Source: Paracoccaceae bacterium
GTDB taxonomy: Bacteria; Pseudomonadota; Alphaproteobacteria; Rhodobacterales; Rhodobacteraceae
Length of the DNA stretch: 33,042 bases
NCBI GenBank assembly: GCA_011389955.1
Contig: JAABTI010000008.1
Span: forward strand, 1 to 33,042
Reading direction: 5' to 3'
Shown here: piece by piece, positions 15,517 through 26,681 of the stretch
Layout: every line of letters starts with the position of its first letter
Position numbering within the stretch: position 1 is the stretch's first letter
The notes under the pieces: generated by a model
What the model was told of the DNA's origin: nothing
The model's input: the letters and a program-made list of their open reading frames with translations, nothing else
The model's database searches: none
Translations under genes and position numbers: made by a program

Positions 15517-15537
15517 CGCGCCGGCAAGGCGGCCCGC

Positions 15538-16509
15538 TCAGGCGCGGAAATCGTCCTGGTGGTCGAGAAACCAGCGGTAGGTCTGCGCGATCCCGTCTTC
15601 GAGGTCGATGGAGGCGCGCCAGCCCATTTCGGCCAGGCGCTGCACGTCCATAAGTTTGCGCATGGTGCCGTCGGGCATGTCGGGATCGGTGACGATGCGG
15701 CCGGCGTAGCCGGTGGCCTGCGCCACCATCTGCGCAAGTTGCAGGATGGTCACATCCTTGCCGGTGCCGATATTGATATGGCTGAGCATGGGCAGGGTGT
15801 TCGCGTCATAGGTGGCCTTGTCGAGATCGAGCACGAACAGCGATGCCTCGGCCATGTCGTCGACGTGCAGGAATTCGCGCCGGGGCTTGCCCGACCCCCA
15901 AATGGTGACCTCTGCGCGCCCGTCCTGAACCGCCTCGTGAAAGCGGCGGACGAGGGCGGGCAGGACGTGGGAATTCTCGGGGTGGAAATTGTCGCCCGGC
16001 CCATACAGGTTCGTCGGCATGACCGAGCGGTAATCGGTGCCGTATTGCCGGTTGTAGCTTTCGCACAGCTTGATGCCGGCGATCTTGGCGATGGCGTAAG
16101 GCTCGTTCGTGGGCTCCAGCGGCCCCGTCAGAAGCGCATCCTCGCGCATCGGCTGCGGCGCGGCCCTGGGGTAGATGCAGCTTGATCCGAGTTGCAGCAG
16201 CCGCTGCACGCCCGCCTGATAGGCCTGGTGGATCACGTTGCATTCGATCATCAGGTTGTCGTGGATGAAGTCGGCCGGATAGGTGTTGTTGGCGTGAATG
16301 CCCCCCACCCTGGCCGCGGCCAGGATCACCACGTCGGGGCGGGTGGCCTGCATGAAGTCGCGCACCGCGGCCTGATCGGTCAGGTCAAGCTCGGCATGGG
16401 TGGCGGTGACGAGATCAAGATCCCGGCCCGCTGCGCGCCGTGCCTGCAAGCGGCGCAGGATCGCGCCGCCCACCATGCCGCGATGTCCGGCCAGATAGAT
16501 GCGGGTCAT
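15538..16509 (-). CDS. fcl: GDP-L-fucose synthase
   Basis: ATG at 16509: [25 protein letters not shown]...; [87 protein letters not shown]: Fcl/WcaG signature. Confidence 0.95.
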
Positions 16510-16513
16510 TGCC

Positions 16514-17635
16514 TCACCCCTCCAGCGAAACCGGCAGGTCCATGCCGTGCGCCTTGAGGAGCGCATGTCGGCGCGCGGTGCGCAGGTCTTCCGCGACCAT
16601 CTCGGCGCACATCTCCTGCGCGGTGATTTCGGGTTCCCAGCCCAGTTCGGCCTTGGCCTTGGAGGGGTCTCCGAGGAGGGTCTCGACCTCGGCTGGGCGG
16701 AAATAGCGCGGGTCGATCCGCAAGATCACGTCGCCCGGTTTGACCGTCGGGGCCAAGTCGCCCGTGACGCTGGCGACGGCGGCGGTTTCGCCTACCCCTT
16801 CGCCGGAGAATTCCAGCGTGATCCCGAGTTCCGCCGCCGTCCAGGTGATGAATTCGCGGACCGAATACTGCTTGCCGGTGGCGATCACGAAATCGTCGGG
16901 CGCGTCCTGTTGCAGCATCATCCACTGCATCCGCACGTAATCCCTGGCGTGACCCCAGTCGCGCAGCGCGTCGATATTGCCCATTTACAGGCACTGTTCC
17001 AGACCCTGCGCGATATTGGCCAGACCGCGCGTGATCTTGCGTGTGACGAAGGTTTCGCCGCGCCGCGGGCTCTCGTGGTTGAACAGGATTCCGTTGCAGG
17101 CATACATGCCGTAGGCTTCGCGGTAGTTCACGGTTATCCAGTAGGCATAAAGCTTGGCCACGGCATAGGGGCTGCGGGGGTGAAACGGTGTTGTTTCGCG
17201 CTGCGGGGTTTCCTGGACCAGGCCGAAAAGTTCGGAGGTGGACGCCTGGTAGAAGCGGGTGGTCTTCTCCAACCCGAGGAAGCGGATGGCTTCGAGCAGG
17301 CGCAGGGTGCCCATGGCATCCACGTCGGCGGTATATTCCGGCGCGTCGAAGCTGACCGCGACATGGCTTTGCGCGCCGAGGTGATAGACCTCGTCGGGCT
17401 TCACCTCGCTTAGAATGCGGGTGAGGTTGGAACTATCGGTCAGATCGCCGTAATGCAGCTTGAGCCATTGATGATTGCTGTGCGGATCCTGGTAGATGTG
17501 ATCGATTCGCTGGGTGTTGAACAGCGACGCGCGGCGCTTGATCCCGTGTACTTCGTAGCCCTTTTCGAGAAGGAACTCGGCCAGGTAGCTGCCGTCCTGA
17601 CCGGTAATGCCGGTGATAAGGGCGCGTTTGGTCAT
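16514..17635 (-). pseudogene. gmd: GDP-mannose 4,6-dehydratase interrupted by one in-frame TAA (or a split/recoded gene)
   Basis: [50 protein letters not shown]...[32 protein letters not shown]...[43 protein letters not shown]. Both ORFs share one frame, separated only by TAA at 16985-16987. The total matches a full-length Gmd of about 372 aa. Confidence 0.93.
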
Positions 17636-18066
17636 CGGGATCGTCTCCACTTTCTGAAATCATGTTCCGCCGTGGCATATGGCGCAACGGATAGTGTCAT
17701 GTGCAGGCAGGTCGCAATCAATTTCCAGACCGGCTTTGGCGAGAGTTTCTGCCACTCTGTCCCGGGCTGCAAGGAGGTCTTTGATCCGGCCCGCCGGATG
17801 CGGCAAGGATCGAGGCTTGCATGTGCCGCCGCGTGTCGCAGAGGCCACGCATTTTCATTGTGATCGCGCCAATGGCTTGCGTAGCCAGACGATATTGCCG
17901 CATCCTGCGGGACGGCGCCAACATGCCGGGCGCTTGTGCTGCGGAAGGGACCAGGTGACGGCAACCGGGCGTGACATCGTGGTCATCTCGTCGTGTTCAG
18001 CCAGGCCGGGGATGACGGTCCGGGCCCAGTGCGGGCAGGCGTGACTTGGAGGGAACGGGAAATTTC

Positions 18067-18756
18067 ATGCTGATTTGTCGCGACCCCGGGCTTTTGTTCG
18101 TCAAGACGATGAAAACGGCGGGATCATCCATCGAAATCGCTCTCGGGGCGTTGTTGCGCGAGGGCGACCTGGCGACGCCGCTTGATCCGTCGGAAGAGAG
18201 GCAGCGACCCGGAAAGAACGTGCGGCGCGCGGTTCGGAGCATGGTGCAGACGTTGCGCGCGCGTAGCGACGGGGCCGTGAGGGCGCGCTATCCTCACCAC
18301 GGCTACGAGGTTGCCGCCACGTACCTGGCGAACGAGATCGAGGGATGCCGCGCCTTCTGCGTGGAACGCAACCCGTACGACAAGGCCGTCTCGGCGTTTC
18401 ATTTCGTCTATGACCGCCACAACCGGCGCATTACCGATCCCGGCCAGCAGTTCGAGGAATTCTGCAAGTCCGCGCGGCTGCCTTCGTTTTCCAATTTCGA
18501 CATGTATACACGCGATGGCGAACTGGTGGTCGAGCGGGTGCTGCAATATGACCGGCTTGACCGCGAGTTTTCCGATGTCATGGGTTCGTTCGGGATCACG
18601 GGTGTTTCGCTGGGCGACAAGAAGGCCAAGGCGGGTGTGCGGCCGAAACTGGATCTGAGCACCTATTACGGGGCCGATTACGAGCGGCCGGCGGCACGAC
18701 TGGTCGAAGGCACCTTCGCGCGGGAGTTCGCGTTCTTCGGCTATCAGCGGCCCTGA
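18067..18756 (+). CDS. sulfotransferase family protein
   Basis: MLICRDPGLLFVKTMKTAGSSIEIALG (PAPS 5'-phosphosulfate loop-like KTMKTAGSS) and CVERNPYDKAVSAFHF (3'-phosphate binding-like RNPYDKAVS). Confidence 0.75.
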   Translation: MLICRDPGLLFVKTMKTAGSSIEIALGALLREGDLATPLDPSEERQRPGKNVRRAVRSMVQTLRARSDGAVRARYPHHGYEVAATYLANEIEGCRAFCVERNPYDKAVSAFHFVYDRHNRRITDPGQQFEEFCKSARLPSFSNFDMYTRDGELVVERVLQYDRLDREFSDVMGSFGITGVSLGDKKAKAGVRPKLDLSTYYGADYERPAARLVEGTFAREFAFFGYQRP

Positions 18757-18780
18757 GCGCGCCCACGCGGCGTCGGGCGG

Positions 18781-19584
18781 TCATGGCATCAGGTTGTGTT
18801 TTCTCGCCAGTTCCGCGAGCACGGAGTTGTCCGGCGGGATCCCGGCATGGCGGCGGGCGAGCCGGTCGCGGCATCGCCGACCGTAGAAGTGTATCGAGAC
18901 GGTGTCATCCTTGACCAGTTGCCAGACGCGCCTTGCATGCAGGAAGTAGTAACGGCGATCACGGAAGGACACCGGGTAAAGCACATGCGGCTCCAGCGCG
19001 TGCCCGAACTCGTCGTGCTTGTGCAGGAAGTGAGACAGGGCACGTGGCCCCCACGCCCCCCAGGGCATTTCCGATGCGTGCATGGGATCGTTGCTGGCCG
19101 CGCGTTCGCGCATTTCGGCCACCTTTTTGGCGTCGAACCAGACCGGGATGGCGTATTCGTCTTCGCAGAACTCGATCAGGTCGCGCAGTGTCGGCGAGGT
19201 CGCGGGCAGCGCCAGAACGCCGTTGGCGACGATGTCGGCGCTTTCGCGTCCGAAAAAATAGCCATCCTTCGGTTCGAAAGGCTTCAGGCAATAGGCATCG
19301 GTATCGGCCCAGACCAGCCCGTCATGGCGCGCGAGCAGGTTATAGCGGAACCTGTCGGAATAGGGCGCGGGGCTGCCCGTTCGCTCGTGGCGGATCATCG
19401 TGGCCGGAGACGGCAGGATGTCCGATGCCGGTGCCTCTTCCACCCCCTCGGGCAGACCGCCGACCCGATCGTAGGAAAACATCACCACCCGGTGACCGGC
19501 ATCGATAAAGGATTTCGTGCACAGACGTTCGATGAAGCCCAGGTCGGGCCCTTCCCAGAACATGGCGATTGTCGGTAGCGACAT
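18781..19584 (-). CDS. glycosyltransferase with DXD motif (GT32/capsular polysaccharide synthesis-like)
   Basis: MSLPTIAMFWEGPDLGFIERLCTKSFIDAGHRVVMFSYD...RFRYNLLARHDGLVWADTDAYCLKPF: DXD with upstream 'SDRFRYNLL', typical of GT32-like enzymes. Confidence 0.75.
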   Translation of the reverse strand: MSLPTIAMFWEGPDLGFIERLCTKSFIDAGHRVVMFSYDRVGGLPEGVEEAPASDILPSPATMIRHERTGSPAPYSDRFRYNLLARHDGLVWADTDAYCLKPFEPKDGYFFGRESADIVANGVLALPATSPTLRDLIEFCEDEYAIPVWFDAKKVAEMRERAASNDPMHASEMPWGAWGPRALSHFLHKHDEFGHALEPHVLYPVSFRDRRYYFLHARRVWQLVKDDTVSIHFYGRRCRDRLARRHAGIPPDNSVLAELARKHNLMP

Positions 19585-19616
19585 TGTTGACTCCGTCGTT
19601 TGCATTGGCGCCGACC

Positions 19617-20360
19617 TTAGCGCGGGCTGGGCAGTCTGGTCTTGCGAAATGTGTCGGATATGAAAACGGCATCACCGAAGCGGAGCTGACCGTTGGGAAA
19701 CCGCCGGGACGGGAACAGGTCGTAGAGCGTGTAGCCATGTTCACGCAGAAGGCCCCAGATCCTGTCGAGCAGCGGAACCCCGTCATAGTGCGGCGTGGCG
19801 AACCATTCCAGCATCACGATGTCGATGGCGTCTTTCCCGAGCATCCGCGCGCTGCCTTCGAGGATATCGTATTCGCTGCCCTGGGCGTCGATCTTCAGGC
19901 ACGAGATGTGGTTGACATCGTTGCGCGAGCACCATGTGTCCAGCCGCATGGTGTCCACGGTGATGATATCCTCGGTGGTGTGGCCGGAGTGCGCTGCGGC
20001 TTCCTCGCCGGTGTTGCTGAACAGCGATGAGCTTTCGTCGTGGTCGGCGACGCGGAACCTGGCCTTGCCGGTCGAGTCCGACATTGCCATCTGGTGCACC
20101 TTGACCGTGGGAAACCGGCTCAGCTTGCGCGTGACGAACTCGCAGTTGGACGCGATCGGTTCGATCAGGTGGATGGGCATGTCGCAGAACAGCCGACACA
20201 GGAAAAGCGCGATCTGACCGCGGTTGGCGCCGATATCGACGACCGCGCCGGAGCGGTCCGAATACTGCGACAACCGGCCAACGGCGCCGACCGGTCCCTC
20301 CATTTGCCTGATCTGGTTCAGATGCCATTTCTTGGGGGCAAGCGGGGTGGCTACGTCCAT
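19617..20360 (-). CDS. FkbM family methyltransferase
   Basis: GAVVDIGANRGQIALFLCRLF...HLIEPIASNCEFVTRKL...ISCLKIDAQGSEYDILEGSARML...VMLEWF: FkbM SAM-dependent methyltransferase motifs. Confidence 0.88.
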   Translation of the reverse strand: MDVATPLAPKKWHLNQIRQMEGPVGAVGRLSQYSDRSGAVVDIGANRGQIALFLCRLFCDMPIHLIEPIASNCEFVTRKLSRFPTVKVHQMAMSDSTGKARFRVADHDESSSLFSNTGEEAAAHSGHTTEDIITVDTMRLDTWCSRNDVNHISCLKIDAQGSEYDILEGSARMLGKDAIDIVMLEWFATPHYDGVPLLDRIWGLLREHGYTLYDLFPSRRFPNGQLRFGDAVFISDTFRKTRLPSPR

Positions 20361-20451
20361 GGATCGTCCTTTTGCAATGTCATGACAAACGGGGGCCCTC
20401 GAAAAGGCATTCGGATACTCGCTGGCGGGGTGTGGCCGCGCGGGGATGTCA

Positions 20452-21495
20452 TCAGCCCTCGCCCGCGACGGCATTGTCGGCTCGTATCTTGTTGCGACGC
20501 AACCAGTCGAGGAACCGGTCCCAGCCGGGGCGCTCTTTCAATTCGGTGATCTTTGCGCGGTGCCAGTCGCAGGCTTCGGCATGGAGCCTGCCCAGGACCG
20601 GATCGGACTTGAGCGCATCGAGCACCGGCCGGGCGCGTTCGGCATGGGGCAGGATCGAGCGATCCCTGGTCCGGTTGACGTTCATGTCCGCCCAGTAATG
20701 CTCTGTCTGTTCGCTGGCGATGTGGTTGGTCCGGCCCCGGTCGCGCTTGACCAAAAAGCTTTCGAGCGAGCGGACGGAATAGTGGTGCAGCCGTGCATGG
20801 CGGTTGCTGAATCCGGGCCATGCGCGCCAGCCGATCTTGTCCATCGGGCGCAGGTTGCCGCCGCAATCGGACCAGCGCACCTGCCCCTCGCGCCCCTCGG
20901 GCACCCCCTTGGGTCGGTGCGGATTGTATTTCTGGAACAGCCCGTTGTTGCGGAACAGGGTCTTGAACCCGATCGCGCGTCCGTTGGCCGGATCGTCCTC
21001 TTCATCGGCAAGGAGAAACTGTTCGGTCACGGGCCGGTCGGCATATGCCTCGATCCCGCCACAACCAAAGAGTTTCCATACGAAGGACACCGCATCGCAA
21101 TCGCCCATGGCCGCGATCATCTGGTCCAGCGTTTCGGCTCCTTCGCGCAGGTTGATGAATTCGTCCACGTCGAGACAGATCAGCCAGTCCGCCCCCTCCA
21201 CCCACGGATGGACGGTGGCGCGGCGCAGCGCCTTGTGTTGCGGCGACGCGCCGTCCGAGACATCGTTGGGCCGGTGGCTGCAATAACCCAGCTCCTCCAG
21301 CCGCTCGGCCATGAGATCGGTGCCATCCTCGCAATTGTTGGTGAAGATCACGAAGCCGGTGAAACCTATGGTCAGGTTATGGGCGATCCATTCCAGCAGG
21401 AACGGACCCTCGTTCTTCATCGTTGTCATGATGACGTGGCTGCCGCCGCATGCCGGAGCGGGCAGGGCGGCTGTGTGCGTTGCGCGCTGGTTCAT
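20452..21495 (-). CDS. glycosyltransferase family 2-like protein
   Basis: ATG at 21495: MNQRATHTAALPAPACGGSHVIMTTMKNEGPFLLEWIAHNLTIGFTGFVIFTNNCEDGTDLM...DWLICLDVDEFINL: Glyco_tranf_2_4-type with an intact D-x-D. Confidence 0.85.
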   Translation of the reverse strand: MNQRATHTAALPAPACGGSHVIMTTMKNEGPFLLEWIAHNLTIGFTGFVIFTNNCEDGTDLMAERLEELGYCSHRPNDVSDGASPQHKALRRATVHPWVEGADWLICLDVDEFINLREGAETLDQMIAAMGDCDAVSFVWKLFGCGGIEAYADRPVTEQFLLADEEDDPANGRAIGFKTLFRNNGLFQKYNPHRPKGVPEGREGQVRWSDCGGNLRPMDKIGWRAWPGFSNRHARLHHYSVRSLESFLVKRDRGRTNHIASEQTEHYWADMNVNRTRDRSILPHAERARPVLDALKSDPVLGRLHAEACDWHRAKITELKERPGWDRFLDWLRRNKIRADNAVAGEG

Positions 21496-23390
21496 TCGGC
21501 GGCCTGCTTCTTGAGTTTGTGAAAGGCGGGCCCCACGCGCTGCGCCAGGCTGGCGTGACCGCGTTCTTCCAGGTTGCTCTGTAGCGCCTTGCGATACCAC
21601 GGCAGGAAACGGCGCTGGCGGAACATCGCGTAGAACACCTGCGGCGTCAGCGTGTCGTCGAGCGCATGTTGCATGAGTGGCTTGAGAAGCCCCGCCCGGC
21701 GCAGGGCCACGGGCGAGAAATGCCCCGCGCACCACGTCTTGAGACGGATCACGTTGTCGCCATCCAGCCGGTCGACGTGGCGACGGTCGGGTTCGAAAAA
21801 CGGATCATACAGCACGAAGGCCTTTTCCACGTCGTCGATTTCGAACGCGCAATCGCTGTGGGCCAGCGACCAGTCGCGCGCGCGCCCCATGCGGAACCGC
21901 CGTTCCCAGGGCACGAGCGCCTCGTCGAGCGTGGTCTGGGGGTTGAAACTGACGACGGTGGAGCCGGGCGCGAGCGACGAAAAGGCGAGCGCGGCGAAGC
22001 CTCCCATCGAGGTGCCGGTCAGAATGACCCTGTCGAACTCCGCGAAGAAGCCATCGGTGGCCAGCTTTCCCAGATGGGATATGAGTTGCGGATCGCGGTA
22101 CCAATCCTTGCGCCGTGCCATCACCGACAGGTGCGACCAGCGGTTTTCGCGCACGAACTTGTATGCCCAGGGTTCGCGCTCCGGGGTGGTGTCGTTGACA
22201 TTCGACAGGTTGTCGAATGTCACGACCAGCCGCGCGGGATCGCGCCGGATGCACATGACCGCGTGGTTCCTGAGCCGGGTGTAGAAGCCCTCGTTTTCGC
22301 CGCCGGTGTGGATTTCGCCGAACCACGGCGGCAGGGCGGCGTTGTTAGCGGGCGGAGCTGGCTCTGCTTCGGGGGCGACAGGCACCGGTTCCGTTTTCGG
22401 CTGCGGGGGCGCGACCGGCGCGATCGGTTCGCCCTTGAGCGTGGCAAGCACCTGCTGCGCATCAGTCGAGGAGGCGCGCAACCGGTCCAGCATGGCGCGT
22501 TCCAGGTCGCACAGCGCCTCCTGCGCGGCGCGCACGCCGGGCAGGGCCATCAGCATGTCCATTTCCCGCGCCGTGTCCCCCATCCGCGCGGACAGGTCCA
22601 CGGGCGGCCCGTCGCCCGCGCCGCAGCCTTGCAGCCACGCGATCAGCGTCTCGGCATCAGGGCGCTGCTTTTCCGGCAGCACCTCGCGCCGCAACAGGCT
22701 TGTCTCCACGCTTGGCGCGGGGATTTTCACGATCACGGCCTTGGCGCTACCCCGCGCCGCCATGTCGCCGGCCCAGGTGATGCGGCTATGCGGTTGCGGC
22801 ATCGGCGTGCCGTCGCCGTTCATCCATCTGACAGCCGTCCTGCCCCGCGCAGGCGCGGCGGGAACCTCGGCGGTGCGCGAGGCGAAGAGGCCCAGCCGCA
22901 CCGCGCTTCGCAGCGGCGACTCGTCTGTCACCGGGGCGACCGGGCGCGCGCCGAACAGGATGGCGCCGGGCTGGAACGGTTGCGACGGGCCGCAACCGGC
23001 AACCCGCAGCGGCGCCGACATGACATCCGCGCCACCACAGGCGCGCATCAGCGACTGCACGCTTCTGGCGCCGCTTTGAATGCAGAAATATTCATCCGAT
23101 CCGAGGTAAAGGCCATACCCGCCGCTTTCTTCCACCTCGGCGCGTGCCGCGCAAATGGCGGAATTGCGGATTTCCTCGTCCATGTCCCAATCGATCGTAA
23201 CCGGCACGAGCGTCACCGCCCCCTGCGCCGCAAGGGCATCGAACAGCGGCTGTTTGCCCGATTGCCTGCGATCCGTGAACAGAACCACGTCCGTCGCCCC
23301 GATCGCGCGATGATATGCCAGCCATTCCAGGAAACTCGATTCAGGCTGTGCCACGAAGGCGCTCAGCAAGAGTTTCGGTCCTTTTGTCAT
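21492..23390 (-). CDS. bimodular protein: N-terminal GT2-like domain, Pro/Ala-rich linker, C-terminal alpha/beta-hydrolase domain
   Basis: N-term: MTKGPKLLLSAFVAQPESSFLEWLAYHRAIGATDVVLFTDRRQSGKQPLFDAL. Linker: PIAPVAPPQPKTEPVPVAPEAEPAPPANN. C-term: RVILTGTSMGGFAALAFSSLAPGSTVV (nucleophile elbow), downstream YDPFFEPD and CAGHFSP as likely Asp/His. ATGA overlap with the next gene. Confidence 0.75.
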   Translation of the reverse strand: MTKGPKLLLSAFVAQPESSFLEWLAYHRAIGATDVVLFTDRRQSGKQPLFDALAAQGAVTLVPVTIDWDMDEEIRNSAICAARAEVEESGGYGLYLGSDEYFCIQSGARSVQSLMRACGGADVMSAPLRVAGCGPSQPFQPGAILFGARPVAPVTDESPLRSAVRLGLFASRTAEVPAAPARGRTAVRWMNGDGTPMPQPHSRITWAGDMAARGSAKAVIVKIPAPSVETSLLRREVLPEKQRPDAETLIAWLQGCGAGDGPPVDLSARMGDTAREMDMLMALPGVRAAQEALCDLERAMLDRLRASSTDAQQVLATLKGEPIAPVAPPQPKTEPVPVAPEAEPAPPANNAALPPWFGEIHTGGENEGFYTRLRNHAVMCIRRDPARLVVTFDNLSNVNDTTPEREPWAYKFVRENRWSHLSVMARRKDWYRDPQLISHLGKLATDGFFAEFDRVILTGTSMGGFAALAFSSLAPGSTVVSFNPQTTLDEALVPWERRFRMGRARDWSLAHSDCAFEIDDVEKAFVLYDPFFEPDRRHVDRLDGDNVIRLKTWCAGHFSPVALRRAGLLKPLMQHALDDTLTPQVFYAMFRQRRFLPWYRKALQSNLEERGHASLAQRVGPAFHKLKKQAAE

Positions 23391-23465
23391 AACTCACCTT
23401 GTCATGAACGTACCAATTCATTTGCCATTATGCACCTGCGGGAGCGCTTGCGACTATTGTCGAGA

Positions 23466-23477
23466 AGCATATATGCT
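23466..23477. promoter_or_regulatory. 12-bp perfect palindrome AGCATATATGCT in a divergent intergenic region
   Basis: Self-complementary AGCATATATGCT about 26 bp upstream of the 23504 start codon, overlapping a possible -10 box. Confidence 0.35.
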
Positions 23478-23503
23478 CCGGATTGCGTAAGAAAGGTTGA
23501 TTT

Positions 23504-25510
23504 ATGTCGTCGGGTGCCAGCAAAGGGCGCGGATTCTTCATCGGTCTGCGCAAGGACCAGTTGGGCGCGCGCCTGCTGATGATGCTCAACAGCATCCGCC
23601 TGGCCGAGGACTACAAGACCGATTTTCGCATCAACTGGTTCCCGCGCGGTGCTATGGCGCCGAAACTCGACACGCCCGCGGACTTGTTCGACCAGGCGTT
23701 CATCGAACGGCATTTCATCGAGAACGATGAATTCGAGGCGCTTGAAAGCATCACCAAGCCGATATGGGCCTTTCTGAAGGACAAGACGCCCGATCGGCTC
23801 GAGGCACATCTGGCCGGTGGCGGGCATGTCCTGCTGGCCGAAGGTTTCGATATCGTCGAATTCCCGTGGGAGGACAGCGGAGATCTGCGCGGGCGGTTTC
23901 GGGGCTTCATCTCGCATATCGCGTTCAATCCGGTGGTGCAGGGGCATATCACGGCGATCGAAAACGCGATGTCGCAGGGCAGCGGCCGTGTCATCGCCTA
24001 TCACATCCGGCGCGGCGACATCCTCAACGAAGATCCGTGGAAGCACAAGGACTGGCCCGCCAAGATCGAGCCGGACGAACTGTATTCGGCATATCTCGAA
24101 AAGAACCCTGATGCGGCCGCGCTGGTGTTTTCCGACCAGGCCGAAAGCATCACGCGCTTTACCTCCACCCATCCCCAGGTGCGCAGGATAACCGACCTGG
24201 TCGATCTCGACGGCTGCAAGCCGGTGCAGCGCGATTTCCTGGAGCTTTTCGCCATGTCGCGCGCCTCCGAGATCGTGGCGCCGCCGATCAGCGCCTTCAG
24301 CCGCGCCGCCGCGCGGCTGAGCGGACAGGAGCGCAAGTGTTTCCACGAGGTGATGAGCCTGGAGGAACGCGATGGCGCCTATGAGAACGTCACCGCGCGT
24401 TTCCTCAACGGCGTTTCCAATTTCATCACGCCAAGCGAAGCGGCCCATGTTTACGTCAAGGTCGCCCGCAGGTTGCAGGAAAACGGGCGCGACGCCGAGG
24501 CGTGGGAAATCGGGCAGAAGATCCTGGAAGCCGGCGCCGACAACGCGTTTCTGCCGCTGATACAGGCCACCAACGGGATCTACCTGCACAAATGGGAAGA
24601 GGCGTTGCGCCATGTGGACGCGGCGCTGGCGCATCCCGACCAGTGGCAGCAGAACTACATATCGGCGCTTGCTATCCGGGCGCATATCCTTGGCGCGCTG
24701 GGCAAGCGTTTCGATGCGCGGCGAACTTTTTTGCGCGCGTTCTGGCAAAAGCCGATGCTGCCCGACGTGACGGTGATCGGCTCTTTCATGATCAAGCGCC
24801 GGCGCTTGCGCCCCGGTGCGACATTGCCGTTCGACATCGACACCCTCGCCGCCCTGCCGGTGCGTTTTCAGCAGACCAACATCGTCGTGCAGCAGGGCAA
24901 GATCCTGCGCCGGCGCGCCCTGGACCTTTCCGCGATCGCGATCGAATGGCCCTGGTTCGCGCTGGATGGCAAGACCGAACGCCTGCTCGGGGCGAGCAGC
25001 GACCTGCAGGCGATCCATGCGCGGCTTCTCGCGCATGAACGCTGTGTGCCGGGGGGCGGACCGTTCAGCTTCTGCGCGCTGCTCGATGCGCGGTTGGGGC
25101 GGCTCGATGCGGCGCTGGAGCGCAACTCCGAGGCGGTTTTTTACGCGCCGGACGATCCCATGGTGCGCAAGCGACAGGCGGAAATCCTGATGATGCGGGG
25201 CGATCATGACGCGGCACTCGCGGAGATGGAGATATGCGTGGCCTGCGCCCCGGCGCATGCGTTCTGGTATTTCCTGACCGGGATGATCCACGAACAGGCT
25301 GGCAACATGCCGATGGCGCGCAGCCGCTATGAAGAGGCCGCCGCGATGGATGACAGCACCGCGGGACTGCATGCGCACTTGGCGCAGGTCTGTCGCGACA
25401 TGGGTGATGACGCGGCAGCGGTGGCCGCGCTTGACCGCGCCGCCGAGATTGCGCCCAACCAGCAACGCTATCGCAAGCGCCGCGACCGGGTGGCGCGCAA
25501 GAGCGCGTGA
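23504..25510 (+). CDS. putative fucosyltransferase-like (HxRRGD) domain fused to C-terminal TPR-like repeats
   Basis: RVIAYHIRRGDILNEDPWKHKDW (HxRRGD at 24002-24019), ALVFSDQAESI, FLELFAMSRASEIVAPPISAFSRAAARLSG resemble fucosyltransferase motifs. The C-terminal half has TPR-like helices (AFWYFLTGMIHEQAGNMPMARSRYEEAAAMDDSTAGLHAHLAQVCRDMGDDAAAVAALDRAAEIAP). Confidence 0.65.
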   Translation: MSSGASKGRGFFIGLRKDQLGARLLMMLNSIRLAEDYKTDFRINWFPRGAMAPKLDTPADLFDQAFIERHFIENDEFEALESITKPIWAFLKDKTPDRLEAHLAGGGHVLLAEGFDIVEFPWEDSGDLRGRFRGFISHIAFNPVVQGHITAIENAMSQGSGRVIAYHIRRGDILNEDPWKHKDWPAKIEPDELYSAYLEKNPDAAALVFSDQAESITRFTSTHPQVRRITDLVDLDGCKPVQRDFLELFAMSRASEIVAPPISAFSRAAARLSGQERKCFHEVMSLEERDGAYENVTARFLNGVSNFITPSEAAHVYVKVARRLQENGRDAEAWEIGQKILEAGADNAFLPLIQATNGIYLHKWEEALRHVDAALAHPDQWQQNYISALAIRAHILGALGKRFDARRTFLRAFWQKPMLPDVTVIGSFMIKRRRLRPGATLPFDIDTLAALPVRFQQTNIVVQQGKILRRRALDLSAIAIEWPWFALDGKTERLLGASSDLQAIHARLLAHERCVPGGGPFSFCALLDARLGRLDAALERNSEAVFYAPDDPMVRKRQAEILMMRGDHDAALAEMEICVACAPAHAFWYFLTGMIHEQAGNMPMARSRYEEAAAMDDSTAGLHAHLAQVCRDMGDDAAAVAALDRAAEIAPNQQRYRKRRDRVARKSA

Positions 25511-25583
25511 GAAAACCGCCGGGCGGTCATGACGCCTGGGGGCGCAAGTCCGCCGCTGCCCCGGCGTGCCGGGTGCGGCCGGT

Positions 25584-26681
25584 TCAGGTGTTTGACAAGA
25601 AGTGCAGCACGTCGCCATCCTTGACGATATATGCCTTGCCCTCGGCGCGCATGCGGCCGGCTTCCTTGGCGCCCTGTTCGCCCTCATGGGCGACGAAATC
25701 GTCGTATGAAATGGTTTCGGCACGGATGAAGCCGCGTTCGAAATCGCCGTGGATCACGCCGGCGGCCTTGGGTGCGGGGGTGCCGGTGGGCACGGTCCAC
25801 GCGCGGGCCTCCTTGGGGCCTACGGTAAAGAACGTCTCGAGGTGCAGCAGTTCGTAGCCCGCGCGAATCAGGCGATCCAGCCCCGGCTCCTGCAGACCCA
25901 TCTCCTCGAGGAACATCGCCGCCTCCTCGGCGTCGAGCTGCGATAGCTCCTCCTCGATGCGGGCCGAGATCACGACATGGGCGTTGCCCTGTGCGGCGGC
26001 CATTTCGGCGACGCGCGCGGACTGGGCGTTCCCCGCGGCGGCGTCGGACTCGGGCACGTTGCACACATAGAGTACCGGCTTGGCCGTCAGCAGTTGCAGC
26101 ATCCGCCATGCCTTGGCGTCGTCCTCGTCCACCGCGACGGTGCGGGCGGGGCGGCCATCCTCGAGCGCGGCAAGCGCGGCGCGCAGCAGGCGGTCCTGCT
26201 GCACGGCGTCCTTGTCGCCGCCCTTGATCTTGCGGGCCAGCCCTGCGAGGCGCTTCTCGATGCTTTCCATGTCCGACAGCATCAGTTCCGTCTCGATGGT
26301 GTCGGCATCGGCCACCGGATCGACGCGGCCTTCGACATGGGTGACATCGCCATCCTCGAAGCAGCGCAGCACGTGGGCGATGGCGTCGACCTCGCGGATA
26401 TTGGCCAGGAACTGGTTGCCCAGCCCCTCGCCGCGGCTGGCGCCTTTGACCAGGCCGGCGATGTCGACGAAGGTCATGCGCGTGGGGATGGTGGTTTTCG
26501 AGCTGGCGATGCGGGCCAGCGTGTCAAGGCGCGCGTCGGGCACGGCGACCTCTCCGACGTTGGGTTCGATCGTGCAGAAGGGGAAATTCGCGGCCTGCGC
26601 GGCCGCGGTGCGCGTCAGCGCGTTGAACAATGTGGACTTGCCCACGTTCGGCAACCCGACGATGCCCATCTTGAAACCCAT
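25584..26681 (-). CDS. ychF: redox-regulated ATPase YchF
   Basis: ATG at 26681: [43 protein letters not shown]...C-terminal [20 protein letters not shown]...[18 protein letters not shown]: YchF/OLA1. Confidence 0.97.

Follow-up and report, generated by a model that had tools for sequence, protein, structure and literature searches.

The window, the whole 33,042-nucleotide stretch of contig JAABTI010000008.1 that was analysed, carries on its plus strand an open reading frame with an ATG start at 23504-25510 (stop codon included), exactly where the first-pass annotation had placed it, encoding a protein of 668 amino acids. An antisense open reading frame of 773 amino acids (23402-25723, minus strand) overlaps the gene, and the conservation among homologues follows the plus-strand frame. 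The AlphaFold2 model calculated with the family alignment has a mean pLDDT of 92 for the whole protein and 90.5 for the N-terminal domain, and comprises a GT-B-like catalytic domain of about residues 1-285 (23504-24358) followed by a helical solenoid of residues 286-668 (24359-25507), the last part of which consists of four tetratricopeptide repeats (TPRs) and a capping helix. No transmembrane segment is evident in the 668-residue protein, the highest 19-residue hydropathy value being 1.5. The catalytic domain contains the sequence RKDQLGAR (RxDxxGAR, residues 16-23, 23549-23572) as well as YHIRRGD (residues 166-172, 23999-24019), VFSDQ (residues 208-212, 24125-24139) and ELFAMSRASEIVAPPISAFSRAAA (residues 247-270, 24242-24313), which correspond to motif I (HxRxGD) and to the second and third motifs of the alpha-1,2/alpha-1,6/O-fucosyltransferase superfamily. 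The motifs named in the first-pass annotation are thus all present, and only the location of the first needed adjustment, as the span 24002-24019 given for YHIRRGD covers HIRRGD alone. Their key residues are invariant across the full-length Rhodobacteraceae homologues. Throughout 36 homologues, with identities down to 22-25%, Arg-16, Asp-18, Gly-21, Arg-23, His-167, Arg-169, Arg-170, Gly-171, Asp-172, Phe-209, Asp-211, Asp-244, Pro-260, Ser-263 and Ser-266 do not vary, and Ala-269 of the third motif is likewise invariant. Because these key positions are retained over the whole family, a chance origin of the motifs is ruled out.

Full-length homologues with 67-81% identity are found in Roseovarius and Loktanella, and a strong homologue is present in 32 of the 296 sampled genomes of the order, with more distant ones going down to 22-25% identity over the full length and further homologues carried on Paracoccus plasmids. 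The homologue of Roseovarius tolerans is 81% identical. The family amounts to about 14 effective sequences, and annotated records label the proteins as 'tetratricopeptide repeat protein' or 'hypothetical'. Outside the family there is one remote homologue (G350, E 5e-19), a protein of 492 amino acids whose C-terminal part is weakly TPR-like and whose gene has fcl directly upstream. Enzymes of family GT11 co-occur with the family in only 1 of 22 sampled genomes, so that the two are nearly mutually exclusive, and the window's own incomplete genome has no GT11 match. In one genome that lacks a gmd over the cut-off, the gene survives as a broken remnant with two internal TGA codons (G033:C18:142800-142898), which would fit a joint loss. 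At two Paracoccus loci (L080:12150-16947 and L067:8008-12417) two adjacent open reading frames both cluster with the family; these may be tandem copies or an artefact of open reading frame calling.

The gene stands at the end of a glycan island of about 10 kb (15523-25583) inserted between trpB and ychF. Its nearest neighbour (21492-23390, minus strand), which adjoins the gene in Roseovarius loci too, encodes a fusion protein with a GT2_4-type glycosyltransferase at the N-terminus and an alpha/beta-hydrolase-like domain at the C-terminus (both Pfam matches weak to moderate), an arrangement that could serve sugar acylation or deacylation. Beyond it lie genes for a second glycosyltransferase of the Glyco_tranf_2_4 type (20452-21525, minus strand), conserved beside the gene by tblastn and with a Roseovarius homologue matching this Pfam family at E 9e-22, an FkbM-type methyltransferase (19617-20474, minus strand; Pfam Methyltransf_21, E 9e-21), a putative sugar transferase with a DXD-type region (18781-19605, minus strand; weak match to Pfam Gly_transf_sug, E 0.12, with homologues in other islands) and a putative sulfotransferase (18046-18756, plus strand; weak match to Pfam Sulfotransfer_1, E 0.08). 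The start of the second glycosyltransferase near 21525 is deduced from its homologues, the mechanical open reading frame running to 21735. The far end is occupied by gmd, encoding GDP-mannose 4,6-dehydratase (16514-17650, minus strand; TIGR01472, E 9e-173, the match being interrupted by one stop), and fcl, encoding GDP-L-fucose synthase (15538-16566, minus strand, first start codon uncertain; Pfam Epimerase, E 6e-66), the latter 79% identical to the fcl beside the gene in Roseovarius. No flippase, polymerase or polysaccharide exporter was recognised among the island genes. The island is a discrete insertion, since the same site is empty in a genome of the same genus (G882, with about 20 bases between trpB and ychF; empty site L131), and is filled with other DNA in G217, where both flanks are 92% identical to the window. 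The trpB-ychF junction is thus an insertion hotspot (window 15523-25583; L130; L131), and the DNA that fills it in G217 resembles a thiamine gene cluster on reading. Elsewhere the gene sits in different glycan islands, often with GT2_4 genes and a putative sulfotransferase adjoining. Some Paracoccus genomes have it in a compact unit of gmd, fcl, the gene and a hypothetical gene without other polysaccharide genes, and in others it is solitary among unrelated metabolic genes.

The first-pass annotation had proposed a fucosyltransferase-like catalytic domain, a claim tied to the presence of a GT-B fucosyltransferase-like fold. Such a fold is found in the model: the best 50 Foldseek matches of the N-terminal domain in the PDB are all NodZ, FUT8, POFUT1, POFUT2 or Arabidopsis FUT1, that is, GDP-fucose transferases of families GT23, GT37, GT65 and GT68. 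The top match is NodZ, the alpha-1,6-fucosyltransferase of rhizobia from family GT23 (PDB IDs 2HHC, 2HLH, and 3SIX), with E 1e-7. The TM-scores, at 0.37-0.52 when normalised by query length, are modest and the root mean square deviations large, which may reflect a different arrangement of the lobes in the predicted structure. Several fucosyltransferases are also among its named matches in predicted structures of viral proteins. Profile comparison by hhalign agrees with the fold, the family profile matching NodZ at E 3.8e-10 and GT11 nearly equally at E 6.5e-10, with a score of 76, whereas profiles that had been shuffled or reversed scored 21 at most. Generic GT-B similarity is ruled out as the source of these matches, as a GT9 control profile of three sequences only gave E 0.05 and a score of 22. 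In the alignments RxDxxGAR pairs with the N-terminal loop (RRxGFG in NodZ, GxLGNQ in GT11), YHIRRGD with HVRHG of NodZ and HVRRGD of GT11, VFSDQ with CTDS and FSDD, respectively, and the third motif (PPxSAFS) with PPTSAFTRYA of NodZ and NSSFSWW of GT11. The fold and the alignment to the GDP-fucose motifs of NodZ and GT11 thus bear out the proposed domain. The superfamily comprising GT11, GT23, GT37, GT65, GT68 and GT74 has been described (PMC8439653), and the protein has its GT-B fold, near NodZ, FUT8 and POFUT, together with motif I (HxRxxD/HxRRGD) with its essential arginine and the two downstream motifs. Both GDP binding and activity of POFUT1 depend on the corresponding arginine, Arg-240 (PMC3180450). 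In the window protein, the N-terminal domain matches no Pfam family at all; the gathering score of Pfam NodZ is not reached by it, and of the 36 family members a single one reaches this model (E 8e-5), and for Pfam Glyco_transf_11 the window protein again has no match and two family members have matches, the best at E 0.012. The protein is a variant, TPR-fused and so far without annotation, within the known HxRxGD fucosyltransferase superfamily and not a new kind of enzyme.

In NodZ the superfamily motifs, PPxSAF among them, follow one another as they do in the window protein, and nodZ, like the gene, often adjoins gmd, but NodZ is only about 15-19% identical, lacks a TPR region and has a chito-oligosaccharide as its acceptor. 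The GT11 alpha-1,2-fucosyltransferases, which also use GDP-fucose, share the HxRRGD, FSD and SxFS motifs but are without TPRs. The fold is common to FUT8 (GT23), AtFUT1 (GT37), POFUT1 (GT65) and POFUT2 (GT68); these are, however, eukaryotic enzymes of the secretory pathway lacking TPRs.

The C-terminal half had been noted to look like TPR. Repeats of this kind are indeed present, as Pfam TPR_2 matches residues 622-652 (E 6e-8) and the model shows four pairs of helices at residues 519-649 followed by a cap, in keeping with the 34-residue helical hairpins that define TPR proteins. The helical part extends beyond the C-terminal half, with mostly helices from about residue 286 to residue 667, and TPRs are recognisable in sequence at about residues 519-667. 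Mean column conservation is 0.36 in this part compared with 0.49 in the N-terminal domain. Trp-482 and Arg-557 are invariant and Lys-556 nearly so, and in our own alignment Lys-556 and Arg-557 fall at TPR consensus positions 5-6, on the concave, ligand-facing side. The TPRs of OGT and SPINDLY are among the best sequence matches of the protein, and SPINDLY also uses GDP-fucose. The analogy drawn in the first-pass annotation extends only to the presence of TPRs. The matches cover the TPRs only, which rules out homology of the whole protein to OGT and family GT41, and a GT41 catalytic domain does not appear among the best 50 structural matches of the N-terminal domain. The catalytic family differs and, as that annotation had allowed, so does the order: in GT41 the catalytic domain follows N-terminal TPRs, whereas here it is N-terminal, belongs to another family, and is followed by the TPRs. 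OGT and SPINDLY bind their substrates through an asparagine ladder (PMC9715652), which is not evident in the C-terminal half here. FlmG of Caulobacter is, like the window protein, an alphaproteobacterial, cytoplasmic protein combining TPRs with a GT-B-like domain, but has its TPRs at the N-terminus and uses pseudaminic acid as donor, with flagellin as its target (PMC7591256).

A plausible GDP-fucose donor had been proposed from the proximity of fcl and gmd in the window, and across genomes this link is statistically strong. Each of the 32 genomes that have a strong homologue also has a gmd match over the curated cut-off, compared with 122 of the 264 without one (p 1.6e-10). Relatedness alone is rejected as the cause, as the association persists within genera when stratified by genus (p 1e-5, from a table counted by eye in which only two genera were informative). 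The gene and gmd are no more than 10 kb apart in 14 of the 32 genomes, against about 0.5% per genome expected by chance, and the order gmd-fcl-gene recurs in Paracoccus. The linked genes are gmd and fcl in the window and at L035-L038, L053-L055, L059 and L066, and gmd with ColD and an fcl-like gene at L056 and, by homology, L058. At L056 the ColD (E 3.5e-131 to PDB ID 2GMS), fcl-like and gmd genes adjoin the gene itself, and relatives of the same three genes are near a family member at L058; the ColD-type dehydratase genes next to these distant members lie at L056:4797-5969 and L058:11772-13016. Such sets probably constitute a GDP-colitose pathway in Rhodobacteraceae, and, given the established biosynthesis of colitose, their position beside relatives of the gene indicates GDP-L-colitose. 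From the gmd co-occurrence and the fcl linkage we infer a donor of the GDP-L-fucose type. Fold and profile matches, co-occurrence and proximity of gmd, and the ColD neighbourhoods together make the enzyme class, a GDP-L-fucose-type transferase, well supported. In the window, gmd (17650-16514, minus strand) has an in-frame TAA at 16985-16987 where its relatives have a sense codon, and this interrupted copy is the only gmd found in the incomplete genome. The stop is either an assembly error or a real loss, and unless it is the former, the supply of GDP-fucose in this strain is in doubt because of it.

The reading we favour, and consider rather probable, is a cytoplasmic GT-B transferase, presumably inverting, with a GDP-activated 6-deoxy-L-galactose as donor, a surface glycan as the most likely acceptor and the TPR solenoid serving in docking. 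The donor would be GDP-L-fucose in the window organism and probably the 3-deoxy form, GDP-L-colitose, in some relatives. The arginines of HIRRGD and the FSD and PPxSAFS loops would hold GDP as they do in NodZ, FUT8 and the GT11 enzymes, and the C-terminal solenoid with its TPRs may dock the acceptor or a partner enzyme. The enzyme most likely attaches fucose, or else the closely related sugar colitose, to some molecule inside this marine-type alphaproteobacterium. In the window genome this is most likely a surface glycan assembled in the cytoplasm by the island enzymes, namely the two GT2_4-type and the DXD-type transferases, the FkbM methyltransferase and the putative sulfotransferase. Fold, motifs, the gmd/fcl or gmd/ColD link and the island are computed here; the glycan acceptor, favoured because of the island context, is the least certain part of this explanation and somewhat better than an even prospect. 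The island genes, with no recognised flippase, polymerase or exporter, speak against it, as do the Paracoccus copies that are solitary or in the compact unit free of other polysaccharide genes.

Protein fucosylation is a serious rival to a surface-glycan acceptor. The same catalytic domain would then act as a protein O-fucosyltransferase, with the solenoid binding a cytoplasmic or to-be-exported protein in the manner of OGT, SPINDLY or FlmG, a reading that we hold as less probable than the glycan. It stays in play because of the TPR tail, the copies outside any glycan locus in several Paracoccus genomes, and the structural nearness to POFUT1 and POFUT2. SPINDLY (PMC9715652) and FlmG (PMC7591256) target proteins through their TPR regions, and the conserved Lys-556 and Arg-557 on the concave face would suit such a role. 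On the other hand, the gene stands amid glycan-building genes in Roseovarius and other genera, no asparagine ladder like that of OGT and SPINDLY is evident in the C-terminal half, and no conserved neighbour resembles an acceptor protein. Flagellin, the target of FlmG, is rejected as a universal acceptor because at least five of the near-complete genomes that carry the gene (G008, G010, G090, G123 and G142) have no flagellin match. A bolder version, in which a NodZ/GT11-type domain with C-terminal, substrate-recognising TPRs carries out bacterial protein fucosylation independently of SPINDLY, in the opposite order and with a colitose branch, we regard as doubtful.

Use of a different GDP-activated sugar, for instance GDP-D-rhamnose or GDP-perosamine, by a superfamily member that is neither a fucosyl- nor a colitosyltransferase is unlikely. 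The gmd product is a common step to several GDP-6-deoxy sugars, and some genomes lack fcl near the gene, but the linked pathways, gmd with fcl or gmd with ColD and an fcl-like gene, both lead to L-galacto-configured sugars, and the structural neighbours among the matches listed all use GDP-fucose. That a fucosyltransferase has here become a non-catalytic scaffold or sensor, which binds GDP-fucose and organises the other transferases in the scaffolding role that TPR proteins often have, is very improbable given the invariance of the donor-site residues over about 14 effective sequences and the higher conservation of the N-terminal domain than of the TPR part.

Our literature search found no TPR-linked enzyme of the NodZ/GT11 type. 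Both the catalytic superfamily and the concept of a TPR-bearing transferase are already known; their combination in this order, with a presumed helical docking tail joined to the enzyme, was met neither in the literature searched nor in any of the related enzymes that we examined. A Rhodobacteraceae group so far called 'tetratricopeptide repeat protein' or 'hypothetical' can accordingly be named as probable GDP-fucose/colitose transferases, and the domain order, reversed relative to OGT, SPINDLY and FlmG, offers a direct test of the role of a TPR tail in a glycosyltransferase. To our knowledge, protein fucosylation within the superfamily has been described only for the eukaryotic POFUTs, and a protein acceptor would mean cytoplasmic protein fucosylation in bacteria by this superfamily.

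Two further proteins were noticed. In several genomes a protein of 483-492 amino acids with a GAGYWLWKP motif is encoded directly 3' of the gene (L078:17240-18688 and L059:6728-8206). Its 483-residue form, beside the gene in Paracoccus and in G003, could not be assigned to a known family, having no Pfam or PDB match, and it is possibly an undescribed glycosyltransferase. At L075:277-3177 (minus strand) a protein of 967 amino acids contains FkbM methyltransferase domains together with a domain that weakly resembles GT11.
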